The translations under genes and the position numbers were made by a program. The notes beneath the pieces were generated by a model, which worked only from the letters and a program-made list of their open reading frames with translations, had not been told where the DNA came from and did not search any database. From positions 1 to 64,000 of the forward strand of contig CAIYYN010000008.1 in assembly GCA_903930435.1 (NCBI GenBank): 64,000 nt of DNA, given 5' to 3'. Position 1 is the stretch's first letter. Each line of letters begins with the position of its first letter. Positions 34,438-51,436 of the stretch are shown here, in pieces. This DNA comes from an uncultured Hyphomicrobiales bacterium (lineage in GTDB: Bacteria > Pseudomonadota > Alphaproteobacteria > Rhizobiales > Ancalomicrobiaceae).

Positions 34438-35310
34438 ATGCTGTCTCCCGACATCATCCTGGCCGCCGTCCTCAACGGCCTCATGAATGGCGCGATCTAC
34501 GCCTTGATTGCGCTCGGGCTGACGCTTGTCTATGGCGTGTTGCACATCATCAATTTCGCGCATGGGGCAACGCTGACGGCGGCGATGTTCGTCGTCTTCA
34601 TCGCGTTCACTGTTTTCGGGATCGATCCGTTTGTGATGATCCCGGCGATGGCCCTCGGCTTTTTCGGCGTCGGTTACGCCTTGCAGCGGTTTGTCGTAGG
34701 ACCGGCGGCGCAAGGCTCCGACAACAACGTGCTGCTGATCACGCTCGGCCTGTCGATCATGATCGAGAACGGGCTTCTGGCTGTCTTTCATTCGGACACG
34801 CGATCGATTGACGTGCCCTACGGGTTTTCGTCCTTCGATCTCGGGTTCACCTTTCTAAGCGTGCCGAAGGTCGCGGGATTTGGCGTTTCTTTGGCGGTCG
34901 CGCTGGTGCTTTGGGTTATTCTGATCCGGACGGATACGGGCAAGGCGATCCGGGCCGTGGCGCGCGAGCGGATGGGCGCGGAACTGGCTGGCATTGATGT
35001 CGAGCATATTTTTGCCGTGACATTCGGGCTTGGAGCCGCGACGGTGGCGATTGCCGCCTGTCTCCTGATGCCGACGTTTTATGTTTCGCCCCGGATCGGC
35101 AACGCCTTCGTGCTGGTTGCCTTCACGATTGTCGTACTTGGCGGAATGGGATCGATCCCCGGTGCCGTCACGGGTGCGCTGATCGTCGGGATCATCGAGA
35201 GCGTTTCAGGCCTGTTTCTTGACGAAAGCCTCGGCCAGCTCGGCATTTTCATCCTGTTCATTCTCGTGTTGCTGCTGCGACCGACGGGCCTGTTTGGAGC
35301 GCGGACATGA
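34438..35310 (+). CDS. branched-chain amino acid-type ABC permease (LivH type)
   Basis: 290 residues, about eight membrane helices. It opens NGLMNGAIYALIALGLTLVYGVLHIINFAHG, with the G.TL.YG...I.NFAHG hallmark of LivH. The later loop IRAVARERMGAELAGIDV and the tail VLGGMGSIPGAVTGALIVG are equally typical. Overlaps the next gene by four bases. Confidence 0.92.
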   Translation: MLSPDIILAAVLNGLMNGAIYALIALGLTLVYGVLHIINFAHGATLTAAMFVVFIAFTVFGIDPFVMIPAMALGFFGVGYALQRFVVGPAAQGSDNNVLLITLGLSIMIENGLLAVFHSDTRSIDVPYGFSSFDLGFTFLSVPKVAGFGVSLAVALVLWVILIRTDTGKAIRAVARERMGAELAGIDVEHIFAVTFGLGAATVAIAACLLMPTFYVSPRIGNAFVLVAFTIVVLGGMGSIPGAVTGALIVGIIESVSGLFLDESLGQLGIFILFILVLLLRPTGLFGART

Positions 35311-36263
35311 TCGCGCTGCGCACGCTCTGCCCGTTGCTGGTCGTGGCCGGATTGGCTTTAATTCCCGCTTTCACAAGCGCCAATACGACATTGAACTTCC
35401 TCGTCTTTGCGCTGATCGTGGCCCTGTCGGCGCAAGGCTGGAATATTCTGGCAGGCTATGGCGGGCAGTTTTCCTTCGGCCATGCCGCGTTCTTCGGTCT
35501 GGGGGCCTATGGGACGGCGCTGGCGCAAGCCCGGTTCGGGATCAATCCGTGGGTGGCGTTTGCGGCGGGCATCGGGTTGGCTGCATTGGCTGGAACCGTC
35601 ATCGGCTACCTGAGCTTCCGGGCCGGGTTACGCGGTTCTTATTTTACGCTGGTCACGCTTGCCTTTGCCGAAGTGTTCCGCATCCTGTTCAATGCGGCGT
35701 CATTCACAGGTGGGGCGGCGGGTGTGCTCGTCAAGCTCGATGTCAGACCTGAGAACTTTCAGTTTGCGTCGCGCTCGGTGTTTTACTGGGTCGTGCTCGG
35801 AATTGTCGCGCTCGTGTTGCTGCTCACGATGCGGCTGGAACGGTCGCGGTTCGGGGCGTGGCTGATCGCCATCCGCGAGAATGAAGCAGCGGCCAAGGCG
35901 CTCGGTGTCGATGTGCTGATGGTCAAGTTGCAGGCGATCGCGCTATCGGCAGCGATTACCGGCGCGGCGGGCGGACTTTACGTCCAGTATTTCCTCTACC
36001 TCGACGCGAACATCGGATTTGGTCCCTGGATTTCCGTTGAAACCCTGATGGCGGCGATTATCGGCGGAGCCGGGACAGCGCTCGGGCCGGTGCTTGGTGC
36101 CCTCGCGTTGCATGGACTGGGGCAATTGACCAAGGGCATCGCGGGCGGAACGCCGGGCATCGATCTCGTGCTGTTTGGCGCGCTACTCATTCTGGCCGTT
36201 GCCTTCATGCGCGACGGCATCATAGGGCGGCTGCGGCGACTTCTCGTGTGGGGGAGGCGCTGA
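35307..36263 (+). CDS. branched-chain amino acid-type ABC permease (LivM type)
   Basis: 318 residues, 8-9 membrane helices. LivM markers are GYGGQFSFGHAAFFGLGAYG, LRGSYFTLVTLAFAEV, the cytoplasmic loop AIRENEAAAKALGVDV and GGAGTALGPVLGA. Its stop shares a base with the next start. Confidence 0.92.
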   Translation: MIALRTLCPLLVVAGLALIPAFTSANTTLNFLVFALIVALSAQGWNILAGYGGQFSFGHAAFFGLGAYGTALAQARFGINPWVAFAAGIGLAALAGTVIGYLSFRAGLRGSYFTLVTLAFAEVFRILFNAASFTGGAAGVLVKLDVRPENFQFASRSVFYWVVLGIVALVLLLTMRLERSRFGAWLIAIRENEAAAKALGVDVLMVKLQAIALSAAITGAAGGLYVQYFLYLDANIGFGPWISVETLMAAIIGGAGTALGPVLGALALHGLGQLTKGIAGGTPGIDLVLFGALLILAVAFMRDGIIGRLRRLLVWGRR

Positions 36264-37006
36264 TGCTGGAAGTGCGCGCGCTCACCAAGCGGTTTGGCGG
36301 ACTGGTGGCCGTCAATGATGTTTCGCTCGATGTGCCCGCCGGGTCCATCACGGGACTGATTGGCCCGAACGGGGCCGGCAAGACGACGCTCTTCACCCTG
36401 ATCTCCGGCTTCGAGACCCCGACCACCGGAACTGTCCGGTTCGAGGGGGCCGATATCACGACGCTGCCCGCATTCCGGCGCGCCCGGCTGGGGATCGCGC
36501 GGACGTTCCAGATCGTGCAGCCGTTTGCCGGACTGTCGGTGGCTGAAAATATCGCGGTTGGCGCACATCTCCGGCACCGGTCGCGCGGTGAGGCGATCCG
36601 GGCTGCAGAAGCTGTCGCTGAGCGGGTTGGGCTCACGCAATCGCTTGAGACGCCAGCCGCAAGCCTTACGATTGCCGGACGCAAGCGGCTGGAACTGGCG
36701 CGGGCGCTGGCAACAGAGCCGAAACTTTTGCTGCTGGACGAGGTTCTGGCCGGGCTGAACCCGTCCGAAATCCGCGACATGCTGCCGGTCATGCGGGCCA
36801 TCGCTGCGTCCGGCGTCACGATCCTGATGGTCGAGCATGTGATGCAGGCGGTCATGAGCCTGTGTGACTACATCCACGTCCTGGCGCAGGGAAAGCATAT
36901 CGCAGAGGGCAAGCCCGAGGAGATTGCGCGGAATTCCAGCGTGGTTGAGGCCTATCTCGGACGTGGTGCTGCGAGCCGACTGACAGGAGGGACGCTGAAT
37001 GGCTGA
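36263..37006 (+). CDS. branched-chain amino acid-type ABC ATPase (LivG type)
   Basis: 247 residues from the ATG at 36263, which follows GGGGAGG inside the previous gene. Walker A GPNGAGKTT is near 35-43, the signature is degenerate (SLTIAGRKRLELARA), and Walker B is LLLLDEVLAGLNP. LivG members normally show LSYGQQRRLEIAR, so TIAGRK is a moderately diverged signature. Overlaps the next gene by eight bases. Confidence 0.9.
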   Translation: MLEVRALTKRFGGLVAVNDVSLDVPAGSITGLIGPNGAGKTTLFTLISGFETPTTGTVRFEGADITTLPAFRRARLGIARTFQIVQPFAGLSVAENIAVGAHLRHRSRGEAIRAAEAVAERVGLTQSLETPAASLTIAGRKRLELARALATEPKLLLLDEVLAGLNPSEIRDMLPVMRAIAASGVTILMVEHVMQAVMSLCDYIHVLAQGKHIAEGKPEEIARNSSVVEAYLGRGAASRLTGGTLNG

Positions 37007-37712
37007 CCCCTTGCTTTCCGTAGAAGGACTTGTCGCAGGCTACGGCGGTGTTCCGATCCTGCGCGGCATCGATATCAGTGTCGGTGCGGGCGAGGTTGTC
37101 GCTGTGCTTGGTGCCAATGGCGTTGGCAAGACGACGCTGAACAAGGCGCTGTCCGGCCTGGTCAAGGCGAGCGCCGGGCGCATCCTGTTCAATGGCGCGG
37201 ATCTGACAGAGGCGTCTCCGGGGGCGATTGTCGAAGCAGGGCTGATCCATGTGCCTGAGGGCCGCAAGATCCTCCCCAACATGACAATCCGCGAAAATCT
37301 GGAACTGGGCAGTTACCGCCGCGCGAAGGCGCATCGCAAGCAGAACATCGAACGCATGTTCACGATCTTCCCGCGTCTGAGGGAGCGGGCGCATCAGTTG
37401 GCTGGCACGCTGTCAGGCGGCGAGCAGCAGATGCTGGCCATCGGGCGCGGGCTCATGGCAGAGCCAAGTCTGCTGATCCTCGATGAACCCTCACTTGGCC
37501 TGTCGCCGCTGCTGGTCGAGGAGATGTTCGACCTCATCACACAAATCGCCGCCGATGGCCTTGCCTGTCTGCTGGTGGAACAGAACGTGGTCCAGTCGCT
37601 GGAAATCGCCGCGCGGGCCTATGTGCTGGAAAATGGGGCCGTCACCATGAGCGGTTCGGCCAAAGACCTGAAATCCAATCCAGACCTTGAAAAAGCTTAT
37701 CTTGGGATCTGA
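36999..37712 (+). CDS. branched-chain amino acid-type ABC ATPase (LivF type)
   Basis: 237 residues; AGGAGGG before the ATG. Walker A GANGVGKTTLNKALSG, PEGRKILPNMTIRENL, signature LSGGEQQMLAIGRGLM and Walker B LLILDEPSLGLSP are the LivF standard. Ends four bases before the lyase gene, so uptake and catabolism are in one transcript. Confidence 0.92.
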   Translation: MADPLLSVEGLVAGYGGVPILRGIDISVGAGEVVAVLGANGVGKTTLNKALSGLVKASAGRILFNGADLTEASPGAIVEAGLIHVPEGRKILPNMTIRENLELGSYRRAKAHRKQNIERMFTIFPRLRERAHQLAGTLSGGEQQMLAIGRGLMAEPSLLILDEPSLGLSPLLVEEMFDLITQIAADGLACLLVEQNVVQSLEIAARAYVLENGAVTMSGSAKDLKSNPDLEKAYLGI

Positions 37713-37716
37713 TCCG

Positions 37717-38601
37717 ATGACAAAATTGACCTTGCGGCAAAGACTGAACGCACCCGAGATCCTGCTGACGCCTGGTGTCTATGATGCCCTGACGGCACAT
37801 CTGGCCGAGGATGCCGGGTTCGAGGCGCTCTATGTCTCGGGCGCGGCCGTTGCCTATACGCGGCTCGGTCGGCCAGACATCGGCCTGACTTCAGTCAGTG
37901 AGGTCGCCGATACGGTCGCGCTCATCCGCGACCGGGTGGACATTAGCCTCGTCGTCGATGCGGATACGGGATTCGGCAATGCGCTGAACACGCGCCGGAC
38001 CATGCGGACCTTTGAACGGGCAGGGGCGAACGCCATCCAGCTGGAAGACCAGACCTATCCTAAGCGCTGCGGACATCTGGCCGACAAATCCGTGATTTCG
38101 GCCATCGAAATGGCGGGCAAGATCAAGGCGGCCGTGGACGCACGCCACAGCGCGGAAACGCTCGTGATTGCCCGGACCGATGCGGTTGCGAGCGAAGGTC
38201 TCGACGCCGCGCTCGATCGGGCGATGCTGTATCGCGAAGCCGGTGCGGATGTCCTGTTCGTCGAGGCGCCGGCATCAAGCGGACAACTCGCCGAGATCGG
38301 GTCACGTCTGGCGAACACGTTGCCGCTGATGGCGAATATGGTCGAGGGTGGTCTGACGCCGATCCAGAATGCGGGCGAATTGCAGGCGCTCGGGTTTTCG
38401 CTGGTGATTTTCCCGGGCGGCATCGTACGGGCAATCGCACGGCAGGCGCAGGACTTCTACGCGACCCTGAAGCGGGACGGAACAACGGCGGCTTTCCGCA
38501 ACAATATGTTCGATTTCAACGGTCTGAATGCCGTGATCGGCACGCCCGAGATGCTGGCGCTCGGCAAATCCTATGAGACCTTCGAGAGGAATGGCCGATG
38601 A
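37717..38601 (+). CDS. isocitrate lyase/PEP mutase-family C-C lyase (methylisocitrate/dimethylmalate lyase-like)
   Basis: 294 residues from the ATG at 37717. Features of the family are the metal-binding VVDADTGFGN (about 77-86), EDQTYPKRCGH with the catalytic-type Cys118 on the mobile loop, and ARTDAVASEGLDAALDRA. The Cys-containing K-R-C-G-H loop marks true lyases (isocitrate, 2-methylisocitrate, 2,3-dimethylmalate lyase) as opposed to phosphonate enzymes or oxaloacetate decarboxylases. Such a lyase splits a substituted malate or isocitrate into pyruvate or glyoxylate plus a second acid. With the LeuCD-like hydratase nearby it makes a plausible hydratase and lyase pair. Coupled to the next gene by ATGA. 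Confidence 0.85.
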   Translation: MTKLTLRQRLNAPEILLTPGVYDALTAHLAEDAGFEALYVSGAAVAYTRLGRPDIGLTSVSEVADTVALIRDRVDISLVVDADTGFGNALNTRRTMRTFERAGANAIQLEDQTYPKRCGHLADKSVISAIEMAGKIKAAVDARHSAETLVIARTDAVASEGLDAALDRAMLYREAGADVLFVEAPASSGQLAEIGSRLANTLPLMANMVEGGLTPIQNAGELQALGFSLVIFPGGIVRAIARQAQDFYATLKRDGTTAAFRNNMFDFNGLNAVIGTPEMLALGKSYETFERNGR

Positions 38602-40334
38602 CCGCACCGGATGCTGTCACGCTCGCCGTCCTCAAGGGGCGGCTGGAGCAGATCGCCGATGAAATGGACGCGACACTCTATCGCTCGGCATTCAATCCGA
38701 TCATCGCAGAGGCGCGCGATGCCTGTCACGGCCTCTATCACGCAACGACGGGTGCCACGCTGGTGCAGGGGACCAAGGGTCTGCCAGTGTTCGTCGGGGC
38801 CATGGCCTTTGCGGTGAAGGCCGTGATCGACAAGGTCGCCGTGGACGGCGGACTGGCCGAGGGCGACACGTTCCTATTCAACGACCCCTATGACGGCGGC
38901 ACACATCTGAATGACTTCCGGCTCGTGCGGCCCATCTTCAGGAATGGCGCGCTGTTCTGCTGGATTGCGTCGGTGGGTCACTGGATCGACATCGGCGGCA
39001 ATGTACCGGGCGGCTTCAATGCCCGCGCAACCGACAGCTTCCAGGAAGGCGTGCGCATCCCGCCGGTCAAGCTGATCCGCGCGGGCGAGATGAACCACGA
39101 CATTGTGGCGATCCTTTCCGCGAATAGCCGTGTTCCCGTGTCCAACTGGGGCGATCTCAACGGGCAGCTCAATGCGTTGGCGCTCGGCGAACGACGGCTC
39201 GGCGAATTGCTGGATACCTACGGCGAGGCAACGATTGCCAGCGCCTTTGATGCCTTCATGGCACGGGCCGAGGCCATGATGCGCGCCCGCATCGCGGCCT
39301 TGCCGGACGGAACCTACAGCTTTGAGGATTTCCTCGACAATGACGGGATTGTTGACGAACCCCTGAAGATCGCACTCGATCTGACGATCCAGGGCGAAAA
39401 CATGACGCTGGATTTTTCCCGGACGTCGCCGCCCTGTGCGGGCCCCCTCAACATCGCCTATTCCACGGCGGTTGCCTGCTGCTATGTCGCGTTGAAGCAT
39501 GTGTTTACGGAAGTTCCCGCCAATGCGGGCTGTCTCGCGCCGATCACCTTCATCATCCCCGAGACCACTTTGCTTGCCGCCAAGCATCCGCGACCGGTCG
39601 GCGGCTATACGGAGACGATCCTGAGGGCGATCGGCGTCATTTTCGGAGCCTTGGCGAAGGCTGCGCCGGAACGCGCCATCGCCGCCCCGTTTGGCACGAT
39701 CAACGCGCTGTCACTCTCGGGCAAACGGGAGAACGGCAATGCGTGGGTGATGTTCTCGTTCTTCGGTGGCGGACTTGGCGGAACTCCCGCGAGCGACGGC
39801 CTGAACCACGGCAACAACGCGATTTCGACCGCCACCATGCCGCCTGCGGAAATTCTGGAAGCGGCAAGCCCGATCCTCTTCACGCAATGGGCCTTGCGCG
39901 AGGGCAGTGCAGGCCTCGGCGAGCATCGCGGCGGATTTGGCGCGATCTACGAGATCGAGGCCTTGACCGACGATACCAGCGCGTTCCTGCTTGGCGAACG
40001 TGGCCGCTTTGCCCCGTTCGGGGTCGCAGGTGGATCTGCCGCAGCCTTCAACCGGTTTTCATGGGAGAGCGACAACGGACGCCTCGAACCGCCAATGGCG
40101 TCGAAGGTGACCGACGTCAAACTCAGGAAGGGCCAGCGCGTGCGACTTGAGACGCCGGGCGGCGGCGGCTGGGGTCCGGCAACAGCGCGTGATCCCGAGC
40201 GGGTTGCGCGCGACGTTCGCCAGAACCTGCTAACGCCCGATGCTGCGCTCAGGGACTACGCGGTCGTTGTCGCGGGCGATGGCACCGTCGATCTTGCAGC
40301 CACAAATGCATTGCGCGCGGAGACACGAGCATGA
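38598..40334 (+). CDS. hydantoinase/oxoprolinase family subunit B
   Basis: 578 residues; a normal HyuB length. It opens VTLAVLKGRLEQIADEMDATL, with LFNDPYDGGTHLNDF in the middle and RLETPGGGGWGPATARDPE near the end, all typical of HyuB. The B subunit works with HyuA in ATP-dependent opening of lactam-like rings (N-methylhydantoin, 5-oxoproline, caprolactam), or in related carboxylases. Acetone and acetophenone carboxylases would need additional subunits, which are absent here. Coupled by ATGA on both sides. Confidence 0.88.
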   Translation: MTAPDAVTLAVLKGRLEQIADEMDATLYRSAFNPIIAEARDACHGLYHATTGATLVQGTKGLPVFVGAMAFAVKAVIDKVAVDGGLAEGDTFLFNDPYDGGTHLNDFRLVRPIFRNGALFCWIASVGHWIDIGGNVPGGFNARATDSFQEGVRIPPVKLIRAGEMNHDIVAILSANSRVPVSNWGDLNGQLNALALGERRLGELLDTYGEATIASAFDAFMARAEAMMRARIAALPDGTYSFEDFLDNDGIVDEPLKIALDLTIQGENMTLDFSRTSPPCAGPLNIAYSTAVACCYVALKHVFTEVPANAGCLAPITFIIPETTLLAAKHPRPVGGYTETILRAIGVIFGALAKAAPERAIAAPFGTINALSLSGKRENGNAWVMFSFFGGGLGGTPASDGLNHGNNAISTATMPPAEILEAASPILFTQWALREGSAGLGEHRGGFGAIYEIEALTDDTSAFLLGERGRFAPFGVAGGSAAAFNRFSWESDNGRLEPPMASKVTDVKLRKGQRVRLETPGGGGWGPATARDPERVARDVRQNLLTPDAALRDYAVVVAGDGTVDLAATNALRAETRA

Positions 40335-42370
40335 CTCGCATTGTTGGCGTTGATGTCGGCGGTACCTTTACCGATCTCGCCTGTTTTGACACGGAAACAG
40401 CGACGTTTTCTGTCGCCAAGGTCTCGTCCAATCGGGGCGATGAAGCGACCGGCTTTCTGGAGGGCCTCAGGCGGTTCGGCGCGATCTCAGACCTGTCAGC
40501 CATCGTTCATGGCACGACGGTTGGCACCAACGCGCTGCTGGAACGCAAGGGTGCCCGGATCGGCGTGATCACGACGGCAGGCTTTCGCGATGTGCTGGAA
40601 ATGCGTCGTCGCGACCGGCGGGAGACGTGGGGACTTTCGGGCGATTTTGTGCCCGTCGCTGATCGAGACCTGCGGCTGGAGGTCAACGAGCGCGTTCTGG
40701 CCGATGGCACCATCCGGCAACCGATTGATCCCGACGAGATCGCTGCCGCCGTGCGGGAATTGCTAGCGCGGGGTGCCGAGGCGCTCGCCATCATCTTCAT
40801 CAACGCCTACGCCAATGGCGCCAATGAACACGCTGCGCTGGAGGTGGCGAAGGCCATCTGGCCGAATGACTACGTCGGATGCTCGGCTGATATCTTGCCC
40901 GAAATCCGGGAATTCGAGCGGGCCTCGACGACGGCACTGAATGCCTATCTTCAGCCGGTGGTCGGCGACTATCTCGCCCGACTGGAAGCGGGTCTCAGAT
41001 CTGAAGCGTATGAAGGCAGCTTCCATATCGTGCAATCGAATGGCGGCGTCATGTCGACTGCGACCGCACGTCGGTTGCCGGTGCGAACAGCGTTGTCGGG
41101 ACCGGCGGCGGGGGTGATCGCGGCTGCGGCCATTGCCGAAGCGGCGGGGTTCAGCAACGTGATCACGGCGGATCTCGGCGGCACGTCGTTTGACGTTTCG
41201 CTGGTCGCAGGTGGCGAGCCGGCGCTCAGCGCACAGACGACCATTGATTTTGGCCTCGTTGTCCGGACGCCGATGATCGAAATCACCACGATTGGTGCAG
41301 GCGGCGGCTCAATTGCCCATGTGGACGCCGGTGGATTTCTCGATGTCGGCCCGGAAAGTGCGGGTTCGCGACCGGGCCCGGTTGCCTATGGCCAGGGAAA
41401 CACCCGACCGACGTTGACCGATGCCAATCTAGTGCTTGGTCGCATCAATGCGGACAAGCCGATTGGCGGCAAGCTGGCCCGGCTGGACGTCGAGGCGGCA
41501 ATGGCGGCAATCGCGCATCATATCGCGGCGGCGCTGGGGCTGGACGTCATGGTCGCAGCCGAAGCAATCGTGCGCGTGGCTAACGAGAAGATGGCAGGCG
41601 CGATCAGGCTCGTCTCCATCGAGCGTGGACATGATCCCGCAGACTTCACGATCCTGCCGTTCGGTGGTGGAGGTGCCCTGCATGTCGGTGCCCTGCTGGA
41701 GACGGTCGGGTTGAAATCGGCGCTCGTGCCACGCTATCCCGGCATCACGTCGGCGCTCGGCTGCATTATCGCCGATATCCGGCATGATGAGGTGCTGACG
41801 GTCAATCTGGCGCTTGATGGTCTTGATCCAGCGCGCCTGGAGGCACCGATGCAGACGCTGGCCCGCAAGGCGCGCAGCATCGTCGAGACAGCGGGTTTGC
41901 CGGTCGAGCGGATCGATACGCAGGTCGAACTCGACATGCATTACGTCGGCCAGACCCATACGGTCACGGTGCCGCTGCCGATCCGCGATGGTGAGGCAGT
42001 GACTGCCGAGATGATCCGGCACGCCTTCGAAATCGCCTATGGCAAGGCATTCAGCCGCCTTTTGCCGGGTGTTGCCGTGCGGATTGTGACGCTAAAGGTG
42101 GCCGCGATCGGTCGCAGGCCAGCGTTCGATCTGAAGGCGCTGGCCCCGGCTGCGGGCGGATCGACGGCGGATGCGGCGCGTGGCACACGGCAGGTCTGGT
42201 TTGCGGGCGGAATGACGACCACCGACATCTGGGCACGGCTGGAACTGCCGGTCGGTTCCGTCGTTCACGGCCCTGCCATACTCGAACAGCCCGACAGCAC
42301 GATTGTGTTGGAGCCGGGTCTCACCGCGACGACTGACGCGTTCGGCAATCTCATCATCACGCGAGGCTGA
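40331..42370 (+). CDS. hydantoinase/oxoprolinase family subunit A (ATP-binding)
   Basis: 679 residues. N-terminal ASKHA ATPase motif VGVDVGGTFTDLACFD, then HGTTVGTNALLERKGARIGV and TTAGFRDVLEMRRRDR. In the middle come TADLGGTSFDVSLVAGG and GAGGGSIAHVDAGG. It forms the ATP-activated hydrolase with subunit B. The gene order B then A inside a transporter operon argues for a specific imported lactam, imide or hydantoin. Sequence alone does not name the substrate. Confidence 0.9.
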   Translation: MTRIVGVDVGGTFTDLACFDTETATFSVAKVSSNRGDEATGFLEGLRRFGAISDLSAIVHGTTVGTNALLERKGARIGVITTAGFRDVLEMRRRDRRETWGLSGDFVPVADRDLRLEVNERVLADGTIRQPIDPDEIAAAVRELLARGAEALAIIFINAYANGANEHAALEVAKAIWPNDYVGCSADILPEIREFERASTTALNAYLQPVVGDYLARLEAGLRSEAYEGSFHIVQSNGGVMSTATARRLPVRTALSGPAAGVIAAAAIAEAAGFSNVITADLGGTSFDVSLVAGGEPALSAQTTIDFGLVVRTPMIEITTIGAGGGSIAHVDAGGFLDVGPESAGSRPGPVAYGQGNTRPTLTDANLVLGRINADKPIGGKLARLDVEAAMAAIAHHIAAALGLDVMVAAEAIVRVANEKMAGAIRLVSIERGHDPADFTILPFGGGGALHVGALLETVGLKSALVPRYPGITSALGCIIADIRHDEVLTVNLALDGLDPARLEAPMQTLARKARSIVETAGLPVERIDTQVELDMHYVGQTHTVTVPLPIRDGEAVTAEMIRHAFEIAYGKAFSRLLPGVAVRIVTLKVAAIGRRPAFDLKALAPAAGGSTADAARGTRQVWFAGGMTTTDIWARLELPVGSVVHGPAILEQPDSTIVLEPGLTATTDAFGNLIITRG

Positions 42371-42371
42371 C

Positions 42372-42986
42372 ATGGCCGATCATTCCTTCGATCCAGCGAC
42401 CACGGCGCTCCTGCTTGCTGATTTGCAGAATGACTTCATCCATCCGAAGGGAGCCTATGCGCGCGGCGGGGATACATCGCCAGCGATTGCCGCAATCCCG
42501 AACCGGATGCGGCCGCTCGCAGTCAGGTTGCGGGCCCTCGGGTGTCCGGTCATCTCCACCCAGTTCACGCTGGTCCCCGGACGCGGTGGCGAACCCCTGA
42601 TCTCGCCACACCTGAAGGCCCTGCGACCATTTCTCGGGCGAGGTGACTTTGCGCCGGGCGGTTGGGGTCACCAGATTGTCGACGAGCTGCAACCGATTGA
42701 CGTAGTTATCGAGAAGGTCGCCTATTCCGCCTTCTACATGACCCGGCTGGAATGGGTGCTCCGCAAGCTCGGCATCAACCACTTGATCGTGTCAGGGATT
42801 GTGACCAATGGCGGCGTTGCCTCCACGGTCCGCGATGCGCATGTGCGCGATATCCATGTGACCGTGCTTGAGGACGGTTGTGCGGCGTTCTCGGACGAAG
42901 TTCACCAGACGGCGATTGCCGCCCTGAAGCCCGTGGCGCGAGTGACGACGATCGCAACTATGTTGGCGGAGTTGCCAAGCGAATGA
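42372..42986 (+). CDS. isochorismatase-fold (cysteine hydrolase family) protein lacking the catalytic Cys
   Basis: 204 residues. The family core is clear: LLLADLQNDF with Asp17, VIEKVAYSAF with Lys115, and LIVSGIVTNGGVASTVRDA. In amidases of this family (nicotinamidase, maleamate amidase, N-carbamoylsarcosine amidase) the last motif is T-N-V-C-V, where Cys is the nucleophile; here that position is Gly148. Members such as the isochorismatases EntB and PhzD act without Cys on a vinyl ether. So this protein should be either a non-amidase hydrolase or inactive. Starts two bases after HyuA, and the next gene overlaps by four. Confidence 0.85.
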   Translation: MADHSFDPATTALLLADLQNDFIHPKGAYARGGDTSPAIAAIPNRMRPLAVRLRALGCPVISTQFTLVPGRGGEPLISPHLKALRPFLGRGDFAPGGWGHQIVDELQPIDVVIEKVAYSAFYMTRLEWVLRKLGINHLIVSGIVTNGGVASTVRDAHVRDIHVTVLEDGCAAFSDEVHQTAIAALKPVARVTTIATMLAELPSE

Positions 42987-44362
42987 CCACAGTGCTGCGC
43001 GAAACCCCGGAATGTCCGGTGCATTTGCCGGTGGTCATCGTTGGCGCTGGTGCTGCTGGGCTGGTGACAGCGCTTGCGGCACATGCACGGGGCCGGGAGG
43101 TGCTGGTTATCGAGCGGGACCCTCTGCCCCGAGGCTCGACAGCTCTTTCAGCGGGCCTGATCCCGGCAGCTGCAACACGCTGGCAGGCGGAAGCTGGCGT
43201 CGTCGATAGCCCGGAACTGCTCGCCAGCGACATCATGCGCAAGGCTCACGATGAACCTGATCCGGTCGTGGTTCAGGCTATTGCAACGACCGTGGGACAG
43301 GCGCTGGAATGGTTGGCCGATGCGCACGGATTGCCCTTTTCCGTCATCACCAATTTCAATTATCCCGGACACTCGGCTTACAGAATGCATGGTCTGCCAA
43401 GCCGTTCCGGTGCAGCGTTGATAGACCGGTTGAGGCAGGCCGCCGATGCCGCCGGGATCGATATACTCTGCAATGCCCGTGTCACAGCGCTCTTTGCCGA
43501 TGACAAAAACCGCGTGACCGGCGTGGCGGTCGAACGTCCAGATGGAACGCAGGAGCTGATTGGCTGCGATCGTCTGGTGCTGGCCTGCAACGGCTATGGT
43601 GGAAACAAGGCGCTGGTGGCGGCCCACATTCCGGAACTTGCGGAGGCGCTCTATTTCGGGCATCCCGGCAATCAGGGCGATGCGGTGCTCATGGGGCAGG
43701 CGCTCGGGGCTGCGACGCGCCATCTGTCGGGGTATCAGGGACACGGATCGGTCGCGACGCCGCATGGTATTCTGATCACCTGGGCAACCATCATGGAGGG
43801 CGGGTTCCAGGTGAACCAGTCCGGCAGGCGGTTCAGCAATGAAGCGCATGGCTATTCCGAGCAGGCCGAGCATGTACTTGCGCAACCCGGCGGCATCGCC
43901 TGGACGGTGTTTGACGAACGTATCGCCGGGATTGCGCGACAGTTCGAGGATTTCCGGCAGGCAGAGGCGCAGGGAGCGGTCCGGTCGGCCGATGATCTTG
44001 CAATGCTCGCTCGTCAGATGGATGTGCCTGAAGCCGCATTTCTCGAAACAGCCTCAGATGTGGCGCGGTTGAAGTCCGGTGACGGGAGCGATGTGTTCGG
44101 GCGGACATTCGGTGGCGTTTCGCAATTGCAGCCCCCTTACTGCGCTGTAAAGGTCACGGGGGCGTTGTTCCATACGCAGGGTGGGTTGGCAGTCGACGCC
44201 TCAGCTCGAGTCCTGGACCGGACCGGAACCCCGCTGCCGAACCTTTTTGCCGCAGGTGGGGCTGCTGCGGGTATCTCTGGTGATCGCGCGTCGGGCTATC
44301 TGTCGGGAAACGGTCTGATTTCAGCGGTTGGTCTTGGATATATTGCCGGAAGCGGATGTTGA
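42983..44362 (+). CDS. FAD-dependent oxidoreductase (fumarate reductase/3-ketosteroid dehydrogenase-like flavoprotein)
   Basis: 459 residues. Rossmann motif VVIVGAGAAGLVTA (GxGxxG at 21-26), then ERDPLPRGSTALSAG. Substrate-side features are GYGGNKALVAAH, a HGxxxS-type region and the C-terminal FAD clamp GGAAAGISGDRASGYLSGNGL. The family transfers hydride to or from a C-C single or double bond (fumarate reductases, tricarballylate dehydrogenase TcuA, ketosteroid dehydrogenases). It would fit a step that introduces or removes the double bond of a succinate- or maleate-like unit. Last gene of the operon; no heme or quinone partner is encoded nearby. Confidence 0.85.
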   Translation: MTTVLRETPECPVHLPVVIVGAGAAGLVTALAAHARGREVLVIERDPLPRGSTALSAGLIPAAATRWQAEAGVVDSPELLASDIMRKAHDEPDPVVVQAIATTVGQALEWLADAHGLPFSVITNFNYPGHSAYRMHGLPSRSGAALIDRLRQAADAAGIDILCNARVTALFADDKNRVTGVAVERPDGTQELIGCDRLVLACNGYGGNKALVAAHIPELAEALYFGHPGNQGDAVLMGQALGAATRHLSGYQGHGSVATPHGILITWATIMEGGFQVNQSGRRFSNEAHGYSEQAEHVLAQPGGIAWTVFDERIAGIARQFEDFRQAEAQGAVRSADDLAMLARQMDVPEAAFLETASDVARLKSGDGSDVFGRTFGGVSQLQPPYCAVKVTGALFHTQGGLAVDASARVLDRTGTPLPNLFAAGGAAAGISGDRASGYLSGNGLISAVGLGYIAGSGC

Positions 44363-44701
44363 CTCCTCGAGTGGGCGAAAAGCAAAATCCCGGCAACTCG
44401 TGCGTTGACCGGGCATTGGCGAGGGTCGCCGGCGGAGTAGGGATCTATCGGCCGCGCCGACGGATCTCCTGTACAAATAGCTAATCTTTGCTCACGAAAC
44501 ATGGGAATGAATTGCAATAAAATACCAGCAAAAATGGTACTTATTGCTCAGTGCATTGATGTCTAATTGTAGGAAGTCGCGTTGTCAGAACCGCGAAAGA
44601 CACTTTGATAAATTCTCGCATGAGCCCCCCGAAATCCGCAGTTGACAGTTGCTGCAAACAGCTGTGGACTGAACCAATCGCGAATTGGTTCGGATCAATC
44701 C
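44363..44701. other. intergenic region between the two GntR-linked operons
   Basis: A weak hairpin (CCCGG, 44389-44393, with CCGGG, 44409-44413, and AAC/GTT inside) may end the upstream operon. Further on, the sequence turns AT-rich. A TACCA-GCAAAAA-TGGTA inverted repeat (44523-44539) might be a site for the regulator encoded next. No gene seen. Confidence 0.4.
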
Positions 44702-45418
44702 ATGGCTGAGGCGACAGATAATTCGACAAAGGCGCTGGAGAAGCTGCGTGGACTGCTGCAGTCGGGGCAGTTTGCGCCGGGTAGCCGCTTGCCGTCCGAG
44801 CGCACACTGGTCGAGATTTACGGCTTGAGCCGACGGTCGCTGCGGCGGGCGTTCGAAGTGCTGATCGCGGAAGGTCTGGTCTGGCGCAAGCAGGGCTCGG
44901 GCAGTTTCGCCGGATCGCCGCCGCCGGATGCCTTTCCGGAAATCGGGGCGCTGGTTGCCGGAACCAATCTGATGGAAGTCATGGAGGCACGGCTGCGATT
45001 TGAACCGCAACTGGCGCAGCTCGCCGCCTTGCGCGCCAAGCCGGATGAAATCCGCAGCATGTATGATCTGATTGGCCGGATCTCGGATAGTACGGATGCC
45101 GACAGCCGGGAACTCTGGGACGGGGCCTTGCATCGAAAGATTGCGCAAGCCGCAGGAAATCGACTGATCCTTGCCTTGTTTGATGTCATGAACCGCGTGC
45201 GGCAAGATCCCGTCTGGCAGAAGATTCGTGAGGAAGCGCGGATTCAGGCGCAGACAAAGCCGATCACCTATGAAGAGCATCTGGCCATTATTGATGCGAT
45301 CGCGGCACGTGATCCGGCAATGGCCGCGGAGGCCATGCGACGCCATCTGCTGACGCTGCAGGAAAGTCTTATCCGGGCGACGTCACATGATCCGCTGATC
45401 GAGTTGCAGGACGCATGA
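44702..45418 (+). CDS. GntR-family (FadR/FCD) transcriptional regulator
   Basis: 238 residues from the ATG at 44702; an upstream TTG at 44642 is less likely. Winged helix-turn-helix about 8-70 (GQFAPGSRLPSERTLVEIYGLSRRSLRRAFEVL). An all-helical FCD ligand domain about 90-230 carries the ARLRFEPQLAQLAA, LHRKIAQAAGN and EEHLAIIDAIAARD positions that supply metal and acid ligands. FCD regulators usually sense small organic acids or amino-acid derivatives. First gene before the peptide transporter and gamma-glutamyltransferase genes, so probably their repressor. Confidence 0.88.
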   Translation: MAEATDNSTKALEKLRGLLQSGQFAPGSRLPSERTLVEIYGLSRRSLRRAFEVLIAEGLVWRKQGSGSFAGSPPPDAFPEIGALVAGTNLMEVMEARLRFEPQLAQLAALRAKPDEIRSMYDLIGRISDSTDADSRELWDGALHRKIAQAAGNRLILALFDVMNRVRQDPVWQKIREEARIQAQTKPITYEEHLAIIDAIAARDPAMAAEAMRRHLLTLQESLIRATSHDPLIELQDA

Positions 45419-45466
45419 CGATACTTGATACGATGGGCCAGTAGGCCGATGAAACAGGAGTTTGGT

Positions 45467-46975
45467 ATGCAAAGAGTCCGTTTTCTGGGCGCAATTGTGG
45501 CGGCGGCGATGCTGACAGCACCTGTCTTGGCGGCAGAGCTGAAAATCGGCCTTGCTGAAGACGCCGATACGCTGGACCCGGCGCAATCCCGAACATTTGT
45601 TGGCCGGATCGTCTATACGGCGCTCTGTGACAAGCTCGTTGACGTGACGCCGAAGCTTGAGATCGTGCCGCAATTGGCGACCAGCTGGGCCTGGTCGGAC
45701 GACGGTATGTCTCTGACGATGACGCTGCGCGAGGGCGTCAAATTCCACGACGGCACGGCCATGGATGCCGAGGCGGTCGTTGCGACCATCAAGCGCAATC
45801 TGACGCTCACCGAAAGCCGCCGCAAGAGCGAGCTTTCCTCGGTCGCAGACGTTGTGGCGACCGGGCCGTTGCAGGTCAGGTTCCAGTTGAAGGCACCGGA
45901 CGCAACCTTGCTGGCCCAATTGGCTGATCGCGCCGGGATGATCGTGTCGCCAACGGCTGCGAAGGCACTGGGTGCCAATTTCGGCAGTCATCCCGTGTGT
46001 GCCGGGCCATTCGAGTTTGTCGAGCGCATCCAGCAGGACCGGATCGTGCTGAAGCGCTTTGCCGACTACTGGAACAAGGACCACGTCAAGCTCGACAAGG
46101 TCACCTATCTGCCGATTGTCGACAATACGGTCCGGCTTGCGAATCTGCGTGCCGGTGACCTCGACATGATGGAACGACTTGCGCCAACGGATATCGGCAC
46201 AATCAAGTCGGATCCCAAGTTGACCTTCGCCAAGGCCATCGGGATCGGCTACATGGGGCTATACGCCAATATCGCGAACGGCCCACGTGCCAATAATCCG
46301 TTTGGCAGGGACAAGCGGGTTCGTCAGGCGTTCTCGCTGGCCATTGATCGCGAGGCACTCAACCAGATCGTGTTTGACGGAACCGCTCTCGCGGGAAATC
46401 AGCCCTATCCGCCGACCAGCCCGTGGTTCAATTCGGCTCTGCCGGTGCCCGAGCGCGATATCAGCAAGGCCAAGGCTTTGCTGAAGGCAGCTGGCCAGGA
46501 ACTGGTCTACATCGAGCTTCAGACATCGAATAACCCGATCATGATGCAGCAGATGCAGGCGGTTCAGGCGATGGTCGCCGAAGCCGGGTTTGATGTTCGG
46601 CTCAAGACCATGGAATTCGCCACGCTGCTGAATTCCCAATCGGCAGGCACCTATGACCTGAGCCGGACCGACTGGTCCGGGCGCGTCGACCCTGACGGGA
46701 ACCTGCATCAGTTTGTCACCTGCGCCGGCGGGCTGAATGACGAGAAATATTGCAATCCGAAAGTCGACGAACTCCTGAATGATGCGCGACGTTCGATCGA
46801 TCCCAAGGTGCGCAAGGCCAAATATGATGAAGCCGCAGTCATCCTCGATGATGAATTACCGGTGATTTATCTGGGGCATACAGCATGGCTATGGGCGTTC
46901 AACAAGAAGGTCACCGGCTTTGTGCCGTCACCTGACGGGATGATCCGTCTGCTTGATGTCACCAATGGCAATTGA
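45467..46975 (+). CDS. ABC transporter substrate-binding protein, peptide/nickel family (SBP_bac_5)
   Basis: 502 residues from the ATG at 45467, six bases after AGGAG; two ATGs upstream lack this. Signal peptide 1-23 (cleaved near VLAAE). The mature protein begins LKIGLAEDADTLDPAQSRT and has ATSWAWSDDGMSLTMTLREGVKFHDGT, the family signature, and NNPFGRDKRVRQAFSLAIDREAL. It feeds the DppBC-like permease below. The ligand could be a dipeptide, glutathione or a gamma-glutamyl compound, given the gamma-glutamyltransferase in the operon. Confidence 0.9.
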   Translation: MQRVRFLGAIVAAAMLTAPVLAAELKIGLAEDADTLDPAQSRTFVGRIVYTALCDKLVDVTPKLEIVPQLATSWAWSDDGMSLTMTLREGVKFHDGTAMDAEAVVATIKRNLTLTESRRKSELSSVADVVATGPLQVRFQLKAPDATLLAQLADRAGMIVSPTAAKALGANFGSHPVCAGPFEFVERIQQDRIVLKRFADYWNKDHVKLDKVTYLPIVDNTVRLANLRAGDLDMMERLAPTDIGTIKSDPKLTFAKAIGIGYMGLYANIANGPRANNPFGRDKRVRQAFSLAIDREALNQIVFDGTALAGNQPYPPTSPWFNSALPVPERDISKAKALLKAAGQELVYIELQTSNNPIMMQQMQAVQAMVAEAGFDVRLKTMEFATLLNSQSAGTYDLSRTDWSGRVDPDGNLHQFVTCAGGLNDEKYCNPKVDELLNDARRSIDPKVRKAKYDEAAVILDDELPVIYLGHTAWLWAFNKKVTGFVPSPDGMIRLLDVTNGN

Positions 46976-47044
46976 CCCGATGGACCAGCCCGACGCACGC
47001 GTGGCTGGCTGGTCCCGAGTGATCTTTCAGGAGGGCAGCAAGCG

Positions 47045-47992
47045 ATGACGACCCTACTTGCGCGACGGTTGCTGCTGGCCGTGCCGACGCTGCTGATCAT
47101 CTCGATGTTTGTGTTCCTGCTGCAAAAATTGCTGCCGGGAGACCCGGTGCTCGTGATGGCGGGAGAAGATCGCGACCCCGCCGTGCTCGAACTGCTGCGG
47201 GCGAAATATCATCTGAACGATCCACTGCCACTTCAATATCTTGCCTGGCTCGTCAACGCCTTGCATGGTGATCTCGGAATCTCGCTGCGAACCAACCAGC
47301 CGGTGCTGGCTCTCATCGTGGAAAAGCTGCCGGTCACGCTTCAATTGGCGATCATGGCCATGACCTTCGCGCTGCTCATCGGGATACCGCTCGGGGTGCT
47401 CGCTGCGGTGAAGCGAAATACGCTCATCGACTACATCGTCAGTCTCATTGCACTTGCGGGCTTGTCGGTACCGAATTTCTGGCTCGGGATCATGCTGATC
47501 CTCGTGGTCTCGGTGAAACTCGGCTGGCTGCCCGCGTCCGGCTACCAGCCGTTCAGCGTTGATCCACTCATATCGCTGAAGACAATGTTGATGCCGGCCT
47601 TTGTGCTCGGCAATGCGCTGGCCGCGTCGATCATGCGACACACGCGGTCGGCGATGATCGGGGTGCTGTCGTCGGATTACATCCGGACGGCGCGTGCCAA
47701 GGGCCTGACCGAGCGCGAGGTCGTCCTTTCGCACGCCTTCCGGAATGCACTCGTGCCCATCATCACGCTCGGGGCCCTGCTGTTCGGCGAATTGCTCGCC
47801 GGTGCGGTGCTGACCGAGCAGATTTTCACCATTCCGGGCTTTGGCAAACTGATTGTCGACGCCGTGTTCAACCGCGACTACGCTGTCGTCCAAGGGGTGG
47901 TGCTGTGCACCGCCGTCGGCTTTATCAGCCTGAACCTGCTGGCCGATGTCATGGCCGTTCTGCTCAATCCGCGATTGAGGGCCAGCCTGTGA
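47045..47992 (+). CDS. peptide ABC transporter permease (DppB type)
   Basis: 315 residues, six membrane helices. It opens LLARRLLLAVPTLLIISMFVFLL with the LPGDPV motif after helix 1. The coupling loop YIRTARAKGLTEREVV then HAFRNALVPI (about 211-237) is the DppB standard. AGGAGGG upstream of the ATG. Overlaps the next gene (GTGA). Confidence 0.92.
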   Translation: MTTLLARRLLLAVPTLLIISMFVFLLQKLLPGDPVLVMAGEDRDPAVLELLRAKYHLNDPLPLQYLAWLVNALHGDLGISLRTNQPVLALIVEKLPVTLQLAIMAMTFALLIGIPLGVLAAVKRNTLIDYIVSLIALAGLSVPNFWLGIMLILVVSVKLGWLPASGYQPFSVDPLISLKTMLMPAFVLGNALAASIMRHTRSAMIGVLSSDYIRTARAKGLTEREVVLSHAFRNALVPIITLGALLFGELLAGAVLTEQIFTIPGFGKLIVDAVFNRDYAVVQGVVLCTAVGFISLNLLADVMAVLLNPRLRASL

Positions 47993-48852
47993 CCGACACC
48001 GTCATGCCTGCGGCAGCCTCACCGATGCATCGCGCCATTGCGAAGCTCATCGCCAACCGGGGTGCGCTTGTTGGGCTGACGATCATTGTCATCATTGGCG
48101 CAGTCGCGCTGCTGGCGCCCTATCTGCCGATCCAGAATCCCAATGCCACCAGCTGGTCGGCGATCCGCAAGGCACCCTCACTGGCGCATCTGCTTGGAAC
48201 AGACGAATTGGGTCACGATTTGCTGGCGCGGATGATCTGGGGGGCGCGGGCCTCGCTTGCAGCCGGACTTGTGTCGGTAACGCTGGCGATCACGGTCGGC
48301 ATGCCGCTCGGTATCGTGGCAGGCTATCTCGGCGGGTGGATCGATCTTGTCATTTCGCGCGTCTCAGAGGCTTTCATGGCGATGCCATTCCTGATTATGG
48401 CCATCGCGCTGTCAGCGTTTCTTGGGCCGAGCCTGACCAATTCCATGATCGCCATCGCCCTGTCGGCATTGCCGATCTTCGTGCGTTTGACGCGCGCTCA
48501 GGCGCAAGCGATCAAGACGGAAGATTACATCGAGGGCGCACGATCGATTGGCCTTGGCCCCGTTGCCATCATGACCCGCTATATCTTCCCCAATGTGTTG
48601 CCGCCGATCCTGGTTCAGGCGACGCTGACTGTGGCAACCGCGATCATTGCCGAGGCGAGCTTGTCGTTCCTCGGCCTCGGACAGCAGCCGCCGTGGCCGA
48701 GTTGGGGCTCCATGCTCAATGTCGCCAAGAACTTTCTCGATCAAGCGCCCTGGATGGCGATCTGGCCCGGGACTGCGATTTTCCTTGTCGTCGTTGCCTT
48801 CAATCTCGTCGGTGACGGACTGCGTGATGCCCTCGATCCCCGCTCCAACTGA
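47989..48852 (+). CDS. peptide ABC transporter permease (DppC type)
   Basis: 287 residues from a GTG overlapping the DppB stop; an ATG five codons in is the alternative. DppC hallmarks are HLLGTDELGHDLLARMIWGAR, the EDYIEGARSIGLGP coupling loop with HYIFPNV-like YIFPNVLPP, and EASLSFLGLGQQPPWPSWG. Works with DppB. Confidence 0.92.
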   Translation: MTDTVMPAAASPMHRAIAKLIANRGALVGLTIIVIIGAVALLAPYLPIQNPNATSWSAIRKAPSLAHLLGTDELGHDLLARMIWGARASLAAGLVSVTLAITVGMPLGIVAGYLGGWIDLVISRVSEAFMAMPFLIMAIALSAFLGPSLTNSMIAIALSALPIFVRLTRAQAQAIKTEDYIEGARSIGLGPVAIMTRYIFPNVLPPILVQATLTVATAIIAEASLSFLGLGQQPPWPSWGSMLNVAKNFLDQAPWMAIWPGTAIFLVVVAFNLVGDGLRDALDPRSN

Positions 48853-48878
48853 TTTCCTCTCAACCCGGACCGATTTCC

Positions 48879-50663
48879 ATGACCCAGTTCACCACCCGCC
48901 CTGAAATCCTCGGCACCTTCGGTGTTGTGACGTCAACGCACTGGATTGCGTCTGCTGTCGGCATGTCGATCCTGGAAAAGGGGGGCAATGCCTTTGACGC
49001 AGCTGTCGCAACCGGCTTTGTGCTGCAAATCGTCGAGCCGCACCTGTGTGGCCCCGGTGGCGATCTTCCCGCCCTGATCTATTCGAAGAAGACCGGGCGG
49101 GTCGAGGTCATCTGTGCGCAAGGTCCGGCCCCGGCAGGCGCGACCATCGAGCACTATACGTCCGAGGGGATCGATCTCATTCCGGGCAACGGGCTGCTCG
49201 CGACCGTCATTCCGGGATCATTCGACGGCTGGATGCTGATGCTCCGGGACTACGGGACCATGAGCGTCGCCGACGTCCTCGCGCCCGCGATCCACTATGC
49301 CGAAGCGGGCCACCCCATGCTGGAGCGTGTATCCGCCACGATCGCAGGCCTTGCCGACTTCTTCCGCGAGCACTGGCCGACATCTTATGCGACCTGGCTG
49401 CCGGGTGGCGCGGTGCCGAAGCCAAATGCCCTGTTTCGCAATCCTGTTCTGGCCGAGACCTGGCGACGGATTGTGCGGGAAGCGGATGCTGCCGGAAGCC
49501 GCGAAGCGGGCATCGACGCCGCGCGGAATGCCTTCTATCGCGGTTTCGTTGCCGAGCGGATTGTCGCGTTCCTGGCAGAAGCTGAAGTCATGGACGGCAG
49601 CGGCAGCCGCCACAAGGGCGTGCTCTCTGGCGATGATCTTGCGGGTTGGAGCGCAACTGTCGAACAACCCGTTACCTATGATTATCACGGCTGGACGGTG
49701 GCCAAGACCGGCCCGTGGGGACAGGGGCCTGTGCTGTTGCAGGCGCTGTCGCTGCTGAAAGGCTTTGATCTCGCCTCAATGCCGACCGATGGTCCAGATT
49801 TCGTGCACACGGTCGTGGAAGCGATGAAACTCGCCTATGCCGATCGCGAAGCCTATTACGGCGACCCTGATTTTTCGACGGTGCCTCTCGATCAGCTGCT
49901 AAGCGATTCCTATGCGGACAGCCGTCGCAGCCTGATGAGCGGCACGGCGTCACTCGATCTGATCCCGGGTCGTATCAAGGGCTACGAGGCGCAAGTCGAT
50001 GCCGTCATGACGATGCTCGGCGAGAAGTCCGGCATGGGTGCGGTTTACGAGCCAACCATGTCGCATCTGACGGAAAAGCGCGGCGATACGGTCCATATAG
50101 ATGTCATCGACCGCGACGGCAACATGGTTTCGGTCACGCCGTCGGGCGGATGGTTGCAGTCCTCGCCGATCATCCCGGATCTCGGATTCTGTCTCAATTC
50201 GCGCGCGCAGATGTTCTGGCTGAAGCCGGGGTTGCCGACGTCGCTGGCGCCCGGTCGGCGACCGCGCACCACGTTGACGCCGTCGCTCGCCTTGTTTGAA
50301 GGGCGTCCGACGATGGCCTTCGGGACACCCGGCGGTGATCAGCAGGACCAGTGGCAGCTGTCGTTCTTCCTGCGCCATGTCCATCACAAGCTCGGGCTGC
50401 AGGCGACCATCGACAAGCCGTTGTTCCATACGGCGCATTTCCCAGGCTCGTTCCACCCGAGGACCAGAGAGCCCGGCCATCTCGCGATTGAATCGGCGTT
50501 CCCGACTGCGACGCTGGATGAATTGCGACGGCGCGGGCATCGCCTGACGGTGACCGAACCCTGGTCCATTGGTCGCCTGACAGCCGCCAAACGGGATGCC
50601 GATGGACTACTTTACGCAGCAGCAACTCCGCGCCTCATGCAAGCCTACGCCATCGGGAGATAG
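48879..50663 (+). CDS. gamma-glutamyltransferase family protein (Ntn hydrolase)
   Basis: 594 residues, no signal peptide, unlike classical periplasmic Ggt. It starts with the conserved VTSTHWIASAVGMSILEKGGNAFDAAVA and GPGGDLPALIY. The autoprocessing and nucleophile Thr404 is in KRGDTVHIDVIDRDGNMVS, aligning with the T-T-H motif of Ggt. GGWLQSSPIIPDLGF and the TPGGDQQDQWQLSFFL region follow. It would cleave or transfer gamma-glutamyl or related acyl amide bonds in the cytoplasm. Many members of this branch act on other acyl amides (cephalosporin acylase-like), so the substrate is open. It lies between peptide-transporter genes. Confidence 0.88.
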   Translation: MTQFTTRPEILGTFGVVTSTHWIASAVGMSILEKGGNAFDAAVATGFVLQIVEPHLCGPGGDLPALIYSKKTGRVEVICAQGPAPAGATIEHYTSEGIDLIPGNGLLATVIPGSFDGWMLMLRDYGTMSVADVLAPAIHYAEAGHPMLERVSATIAGLADFFREHWPTSYATWLPGGAVPKPNALFRNPVLAETWRRIVREADAAGSREAGIDAARNAFYRGFVAERIVAFLAEAEVMDGSGSRHKGVLSGDDLAGWSATVEQPVTYDYHGWTVAKTGPWGQGPVLLQALSLLKGFDLASMPTDGPDFVHTVVEAMKLAYADREAYYGDPDFSTVPLDQLLSDSYADSRRSLMSGTASLDLIPGRIKGYEAQVDAVMTMLGEKSGMGAVYEPTMSHLTEKRGDTVHIDVIDRDGNMVSVTPSGGWLQSSPIIPDLGFCLNSRAQMFWLKPGLPTSLAPGRRPRTTLTPSLALFEGRPTMAFGTPGGDQQDQWQLSFFLRHVHHKLGLQATIDKPLFHTAHFPGSFHPRTREPGHLAIESAFPTATLDELRRRGHRLTVTEPWSIGRLTAAKRDADGLLYAAATPRLMQAYAIGR

Positions 50664-50665
50664 GA

Positions 50666-51421: not shown

Positions 51422-51436
51422 ACCGGAGACTGGCCC

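Follow-up and report, generated by a model that had tools for sequence, protein, structure and literature searches.

The operon and its isochorismatase-fold protein

The window, which is the whole stretch of 64,000 nucleotides that was analyzed, contains a tightly packed operon on the plus strand. Its order is a GntR/UTRA regulator, LivKHMGF, a lyase of the isocitrate lyase fold, HyuB, HyuA, the isochorismatase-fold protein under study and an FAD-dependent oxidoreductase. The HutC-like regulator (positions 32278–33129) is followed by a LivK-type solute-binding protein (33122–34336), identified by homology search, and by LivH, LivM, LivG, and LivF of a branched-chain amino acid/amide-type ABC transporter (34438–37712); LivM was assigned by a Pfam scan, and LivH, LivG, and LivF were named by eye from their translations. 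The next gene (37717–38601) encodes a C–C lyase of the isocitrate lyase/PEP mutase fold with a KRCGH motif, recognized by the prpB model and by matches to solved structures. The lyase scores 282.1 bits against the prpB model, under the cut-off of 354.4, and among solved structures it matches petal death protein and methylisocitrate lyase best and dimethylmalate lyase as well (searches run from position 37714, one codon longer than the ATG at 37717). The HyuB-type subunit (38598–40334; Pfam PF02538) and the HyuA-type subunit of an ATP-dependent hydantoinase/oxoprolinase (40331–42370; Pfam PF01968, PF05378, and PF19278) come next, and the best solved match of HyuA is N-methylhydantoinase (7hk5), followed by 5-oxoprolinase (6yra). 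A gap of one base separates the hyuA stop from the gene of the isochorismatase-fold protein (42372–42986), whose own stop overlaps the start of the FAD gene by 4 nt (ATGA). The FAD-dependent oxidoreductase (42983–44362) belongs to the fumarate/urocanate reductase family according to profile and homology searches, which were run from 42980, one codon longer than the ATG at 42983.

Divergent from the operon, on the minus strand, lie genes for LeuCD (30115–32153), comprising a LeuC-like dehydratase large subunit (30726–32153) and a LeuD-like small subunit (30115–30729, ATG at 30729; the search used a start at 30720), both assigned by homology. Both subunits exceed the cut-offs of the ordinary 3-isopropylmalate dehydratase models, so a special role for them rests on their context and on the presence of another LeuC relative elsewhere in the genome, which is 55% identical to the product of 30726–32153. 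Downstream of the operon, the window holds a second unit led by a GntR/FCD regulator (44642–53269), with dipeptide-type ABC transporter genes, a γ-glutamyltransferase-family protein (48879–50663), and a DUF1028 protein (50666–51421).

The reading frame at 42372–42986 has no internal stops and gives a product of 204 amino acids, which matches PF00857 (Isochorismatase) with 142.3 bits against a cut-off of 27. By profile score and fold, the protein is a member of the isochorismatase-like hydrolase superfamily. It retains Asp17 (codon 42420–42422), the general acid/base of the family, and Lys115 (42714–42716). Alignment places Gly148 (42813–42815), within the loop T145-N146-G147-G148-V149 (42804–42818), in the column of the nucleophilic Cys, as the sequence-only reading of this gene had stated. 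The Asp-Lys-Cys triad of the cysteine amidohydrolases (RutB, BiuH, NicF, and CSHase) is absent, with Gly148 in its place. Nine active-site residues have been named for the biuret hydrolase BiuH (PMC5806882), and eight of these are found in the window protein with identical spacing within each motif (Asp-17, Gln-19, Phe-22, Lys-115, Phe-121, Thr-124, Gly-142, and Thr-152), the nucleophile alone being altered. Scores against the NCBIfam equivalog models for RutB (80 bits, cut-off 377.95) and BiuH (73.3 bits, cut-off 370) are below the cut-offs. An AlphaFold2 model (mean pLDDT 85.6, pTM 0.85) has biuret hydrolase, RutB, and the triuret hydrolase TrtA as its nearest folds among the matches listed (Z 22.4–23.4), followed by the maleamate amidases NicF and Ami (Z 20.1–21.1) and by PhzD, VibB, and EntB (Z 18.6–19.6).

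Conservation of the glycine

In a set of 132 distinct sequences of at least 48% identity, that of the window included, the column of Gly148 holds Gly in 131 and Ala in one (L201), with Cys in none. Asp17, Phe-22, Lys115, Phe-121, and Gly-142 are each present in 132 of 132, Gln-19 in 130, and Thr-152 in 129 with Ser in the remainder; position 124 is divided between Thr (73) and Ser (59). The loop from Gly-142 to Ala-150 is at least 98% conserved at every position, and positions 145–149 read TNGGV in 128 sequences, TNGGI in 3, and TNGAV in 1. His80, Tyr29, Thr66, Gly147, and Ala150 are near-fixed in this set; the corresponding columns seldom or never hold these residues in 34 distinct relatives of less than 48% identity, which include Escherichia coli RutB and YecD. 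In these distant relatives the nucleophile column is Cys in 27, Ser in 3, Val in 2, Ala in 1, and Gly in 1.

Across 150 related genomes, 21 matches were found, that of the window among them, at 55–100% identity and all with Gly148, the next match being at most 38% identical; in a second search the identities fell from 53% to 36%. Close homologues with Cys that would bridge these gaps (55 to 38% and 53 to 36%) were not found. The set of named genomes favors Gly because one of the two seeds of that scan was the pattern GIVTNGGVA; the search of 150 genomes was made without this pattern, as were two wider searches. Class- and phylum-wide searches with a profile itself made from Gly sequences returned, among the high-scoring places and leaving out the window's own, Gly in 31 of 32 and Ala in one. 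In a quick tree built from 36 sequences of the close set and 38 others (74 rows), the Gly group is separated from the rest by a branch with an SH-aLRT support of 100; some outside branches, that of EntB above all, are very long.

These data show a subfamily, mainly from Alphaproteobacteria, in which Gly has become fixed at the position of the nucleophilic Cys, with the Asp, the Lys, and almost all of the pocket retained. The prevalence of Gly and the unbroken frame in the window rule out sporadic inactivation or a pseudogene for the sequences examined, and this explanation was rejected. The conservation of the Asp-Lys dyad and of the loop argues against decay. The sequence-only reading had proposed to look for Gly148 in close homologues and had named Cys-bearing homologues in the same context as the finding that would overturn it; none of the 132 sequences carries Cys. 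The group is a conserved subfamily without Cys that is probably active, with a chemistry that would be unusual for the family. Several public records label its members "cysteine hydrolase". Genome G378 carries the sequence with Ala (L201) as a second copy, which is not part of any HyuAB operon in the available stretch; it is perhaps a decaying or re-purposed duplicate.

Gene neighborhood of the subfamily

The neighborhood was counted over 131 distinct loci after six duplicates (L061, L102, L204, L205, L207, and L214) had been dropped. Of the 128 loci with at least 1 kb of upstream sequence, 121 have hyuA as the next gene upstream, in the same orientation, the seven exceptions being L060, L094, L120, L129, L132, L201, and L202. 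Among the 92 loci with at least 5 kb upstream and 3 kb downstream, hyuA and hyuB are each present in 88, the lyase in 85, and the FAD gene in 56, the last not being found in the other 36. Where at least 9 kb of sequence flanks the gene on each side (70 loci), a LeuCD, HacCD, or MmgE/PrpD-type gene occurs in 60 and the Liv transporter in 56; one representative small subunit from the HacCD-type loci scores above the threshold set for the "LeuD/DmdB family" model. The LeuC-like gene and the GntR/UTRA regulator recur beside the operon in some related loci. Four loci (L084, L099, L100, and L105) have two genes of the Asp/Glu/hydantoin racemase family after the operon; no FAD gene was detected in L084, L099, and L100. 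The operon is found in numerous families of Alphaproteobacteria as well as in Burkholderiales, and it apparently serves to degrade a ring compound that contains nitrogen. A search of the open-access literature, through titles and the openings of abstracts, returned no description of the subfamily or the operon.

A HyuA relative was not found in the roughly 7–10 kb of upstream sequence examined for L060, L120, L129, L201, and L202, and no HyuAB homologue occurs in about 20 kb each of L060 (Rhizobiales MAG 62-17) and L120 (Halovulum marinum). The Gly proteins of these last two loci are 72 and 67% identical, respectively, to that of the window, and both loci have LeuCD. The nearest solved relative of the L060 monooxygenase is 6-hydroxy-3-succinoylpyridine 3-monooxygenase HspB (E 6.7e-55), and the FAD monooxygenase of L120 is 49% identical to that of L060. 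L060 also has a LigB-type dioxygenase. Both loci encode a distant relative of maleate cis-trans isomerase (E 1.8e-8 for the L060 copy), although the Pfam name of this protein is arylmalonate decarboxylase, which counts against the analogy. For nicotine degradation in Pseudomonas putida, a cluster figure lists hspB with maleamate amidase and maleate isomerase genes (PMC3812094). In a Tistrella locus (L214), an annotated CaiB/BaiF CoA-transferase lies between the gene of the Gly protein and LeuCD; in L120 there is a relative of this transferase, with 35% identity, and also an HMG-CoA-lyase-like gene. No homologue of the isocitrate lyase-fold lyase was found in the available stretches of L060, L120, and L214. 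Ten further loci (L231–L240) that encode a related monooxygenase but no member of the Gly subfamily were also considered. Three of these have an isochorismatase-fold protein with Cys, the loops, read by eye, being TNVCC (L231), TSMCV (L232), and TSGCV (L239), and none was found in the other seven, by annotation for L233 and by tblastn for the rest. A Cys enzyme can therefore serve an HspB-type cluster, and the link of the Gly subfamily to this context, seen in 2 loci, is loose.

Comparison with known relatives

An Asp-Lys-Gly arrangement has been published for EntB (Asp37-Lys123-Gly156) and YecD (Asp25-Lys112-Gly145) in a 2025 study (PMC12553813), so the exchange of Cys for Gly is of a known kind; what is new here is the fixation of Gly in a separate group with an operon of its own. 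In our alignment, the Gly of E. coli EntB and the TNIGV loop of YecD fall in the column of Gly148. The same study reports that wild-type YecD has no γ-lactamase activity and that the G145C variant gains this activity and hydrolyzes several amides untouched by the wild type, whereas a change in the active site gave EntB no benefit (data not shown there). These results support the earlier caution that an amidase role should not be assumed in this operon. The wider caution, which asked for a different type of reaction, a role in binding, and lost activity to be weighed as well, is likewise supported, sporadic loss having been dealt with above.

YecD shares the Asp-Lys-Gly arrangement but is 30% identical to the window protein, differs in its loop, and lies outside the Gly clade, pairing with L004 in the quick tree, where long branches are present. 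EntB, PhzD, and VibB share the fold, and EntB also the three residues, with lower structural scores than BiuH, RutB, and TrtA; EntB falls outside the Gly clade, though on a very long branch, and no siderophore or phenazine genes were found among the scanned neighbors (Liv, lyase, HyuAB, FAD, GntR, and LeuCD). RutB, BiuH, and TrtA have the fold, the Asp, and the Lys in common with the window protein, and the pocket residues are spaced as in BiuH, but these enzymes have a Cys nucleophile and a different gene context, and the equivalog scores are far below the cut-offs. NicF and Ami likewise share the fold, and the neighbors in L060 and L120, with the HspB-like enzyme and the distant maleate isomerase relative, resemble the nicotine pathway. 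In contrast to the Gly of the window protein, the nucleophile of NicF is Cys150, and Cys149 of Ami is mutated in the structure 4l08, according to its title; the main context of the Gly subfamily is HyuAB with the lyase.

The ring-opening HyuAB pair is shared with the operons of ATP-dependent hydantoinases and oxoprolinases, such as N-methylhydantoinase and the caprolactamase CapAB. In the creatinine route, N-methylhydantoinase is followed by an isochorismatase-fold enzyme, N-carbamoylsarcosine amidohydrolase. The window differs in that the follow-up enzyme lacks Cys and a dehydratase and a C–C lyase are added. The methylcitrate cycle ends with PrpD, aconitase, and PrpB, and nicotinate fermentation uses dimethylmaleate hydratase and dimethylmalate lyase; as in our operon, a dehydratase of the aconitase or PrpD type precedes a lyase of the isocitrate lyase fold. 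Unlike these systems, the operon would be fed from a HyuAB product, and its lyase scores under the PrpB cut-off. The enamidase route of nicotinate fermentation has further pathway genes, which were not seen among the scanned neighbors, and a route of that type was set aside.

Possible reactions of the glycine subfamily

Given the gene neighborhood, the substrate could plausibly be a ring-opened amide, so that amide hydrolysis without Cys stays among the candidate reactions. Our preferred reading, to which we assign a probability of a little more than one in three, is that HyuAB opens a lactam or imide and that the Gly protein then releases ammonia from a half-amide of the substituted maleamate type, with the carboxylate of the substrate replacing the Cys and with a hydratase and the lyase following. 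HyuAB, spending ATP, would open a lactam or cyclic imide to give the half-amide of a substituted maleate, and in the two loci with the HspB-like enzyme an equivalent compound would come from a pyridine-type route. The amide would then be attacked by the neighboring carboxylate of the substrate instead of an enzyme Cys, via a transient cyclic anhydride, with Gly148 leaving space for this carboxylate and the Asp17-Lys115 dyad donating the proton that expels ammonia. LeuCD or HacCD could hydrate the substituted maleate to a substituted malate, or an MmgE/PrpD-type enzyme could handle the substituted maleate. The lyase would split the substituted malate into a keto acid and a carboxylate, and the FAD enzyme may admit saturated, succinate-type analogues. 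The tail of dehydratase and lyase makes the class of product predictable.

Both contexts share a step that can yield a ring-opened amide, the Gly protein, and an aconitase-type dehydratase, and a substituted maleamate fits them. In acid, the carboxyl group of a maleamic acid attacks the amide of the same molecule and so brings about its hydrolysis, a reaction made much faster by substituents on the double bond (PMC12567123, PMC8751315). An enzyme acting on such a self-attacking substrate would need a general acid and no nucleophile, which matches the residues that remain. Several points count against the preferred reading. The self-catalyzed hydrolysis is described for acid conditions (PMC12567123). 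Wild-type YecD does not hydrolyze the lactam and amides that are cleaved by its G145C variant, and maleamates are not mentioned in the available part of that report (PMC12553813). The HyuAB relatives in the available descriptions act on lactams or hydantoins or are carboxylases, with no mention there of imides. In a narrower and improbable form of this reading, the enzyme would be a substrate-assisted amidohydrolase contributing only an Asp-Lys proton relay, the cis-carboxylate of a mono- or dialkyl-maleamate being the nucleophile, and the operon would be a pathway dedicated to alkylated cyclic imides, which might be maleimides released from heme, chlorophyll, or bilins, such as hematinic acid. 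Hematinic acid or methylethylmaleimide as the substrate is speculation, and the literature searched gave no bacterial pathway or genes for either compound.

The main rival, possible but in our view doubtful, is a reaction of the isochorismatase type. Isochorismatases use their Asp to protonate a vinyl carbon. By analogy, Asp17 would protonate the C=C carbon of an enol ether, enamine, or enamide derived from an unsaturated lactam opened by HyuAB, and water would add to the resulting cation, as in EntB, with no nucleophile involved. EntB has Gly at the identical column and an equal Asp-Lys pair (PMC12553813), so an enzyme of this fold that works without Cys is already known to have Gly there, and RutB, a near structural neighbor, yields aminoacrylate (PMC5806882), so that enamine-type compounds do occur beside the isochorismatase fold. 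However, the predicted model is closer to BiuH, RutB, and TrtA than to EntB, VibB, and PhzD, and neither the lyase nor the dehydratase of the operon suggests an enol ether. Ring-opened enamines also often hydrolyze unaided, which weighs against the need for such an enzyme.

Ordinary hydrolysis of an amide or carbamoyl group, by an activated water or another residue such as His80, which none of the distant relatives has at its column, and with no assistance from the substrate, appears unlikely. It would fit the near-fixation of His80, Tyr29, and Thr66 in the subfamily, and the position after HyuAB parallels the step from N-methylhydantoinase to N-carbamoylsarcosine amidohydrolase. Against it, no isochorismatase-fold amidase without Cys was found in the literature examined, and the C175S variant of BiuH is inactive (PMC5806882). 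Cys170 is hardly a moved nucleophile, as it is also frequent (0.81) in the distant relatives, and this candidate was set aside. More unlikely still is a role without catalysis, in which the protein would serve HyuAB as a partner or by binding a ligand and would be retained for structural or regulatory reasons. The missing nucleophile and the tight coupling to hyuA are consistent with such a role, but binding alone does not predict the invariance of Asp17 and Lys115 and the mostly near-fixed pocket, and the protein occurs without a detected HyuA relative in the five loci named above. If active, the group shows how an amidase scaffold works after a lasting loss of its nucleophile, and it marks a testable step in a widespread operon.

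Other relatives with altered residues

Five relatives (L032, L034, L031, L035, and L006) have Val or Ser at the Cys column, in loops reading TNGVV, TNMSV/I, or TQNSV, and on these alignments the loss of Cys seems not to be rare across the isochorismatase superfamily. Three relatives with a TNCCV loop (L030, L033, and L036) have Glu at position 17 instead of the family Asp. At about 6980–8690 of L210, an isochorismatase-fold protein without Cys (TTWAV) adjoins an isocitrate lyase-fold lyase that is 41% identical to that of the window, with no HyuAB homologue found within 14.6 kb; this protein is a possible independent case of a Cys-less enzyme.
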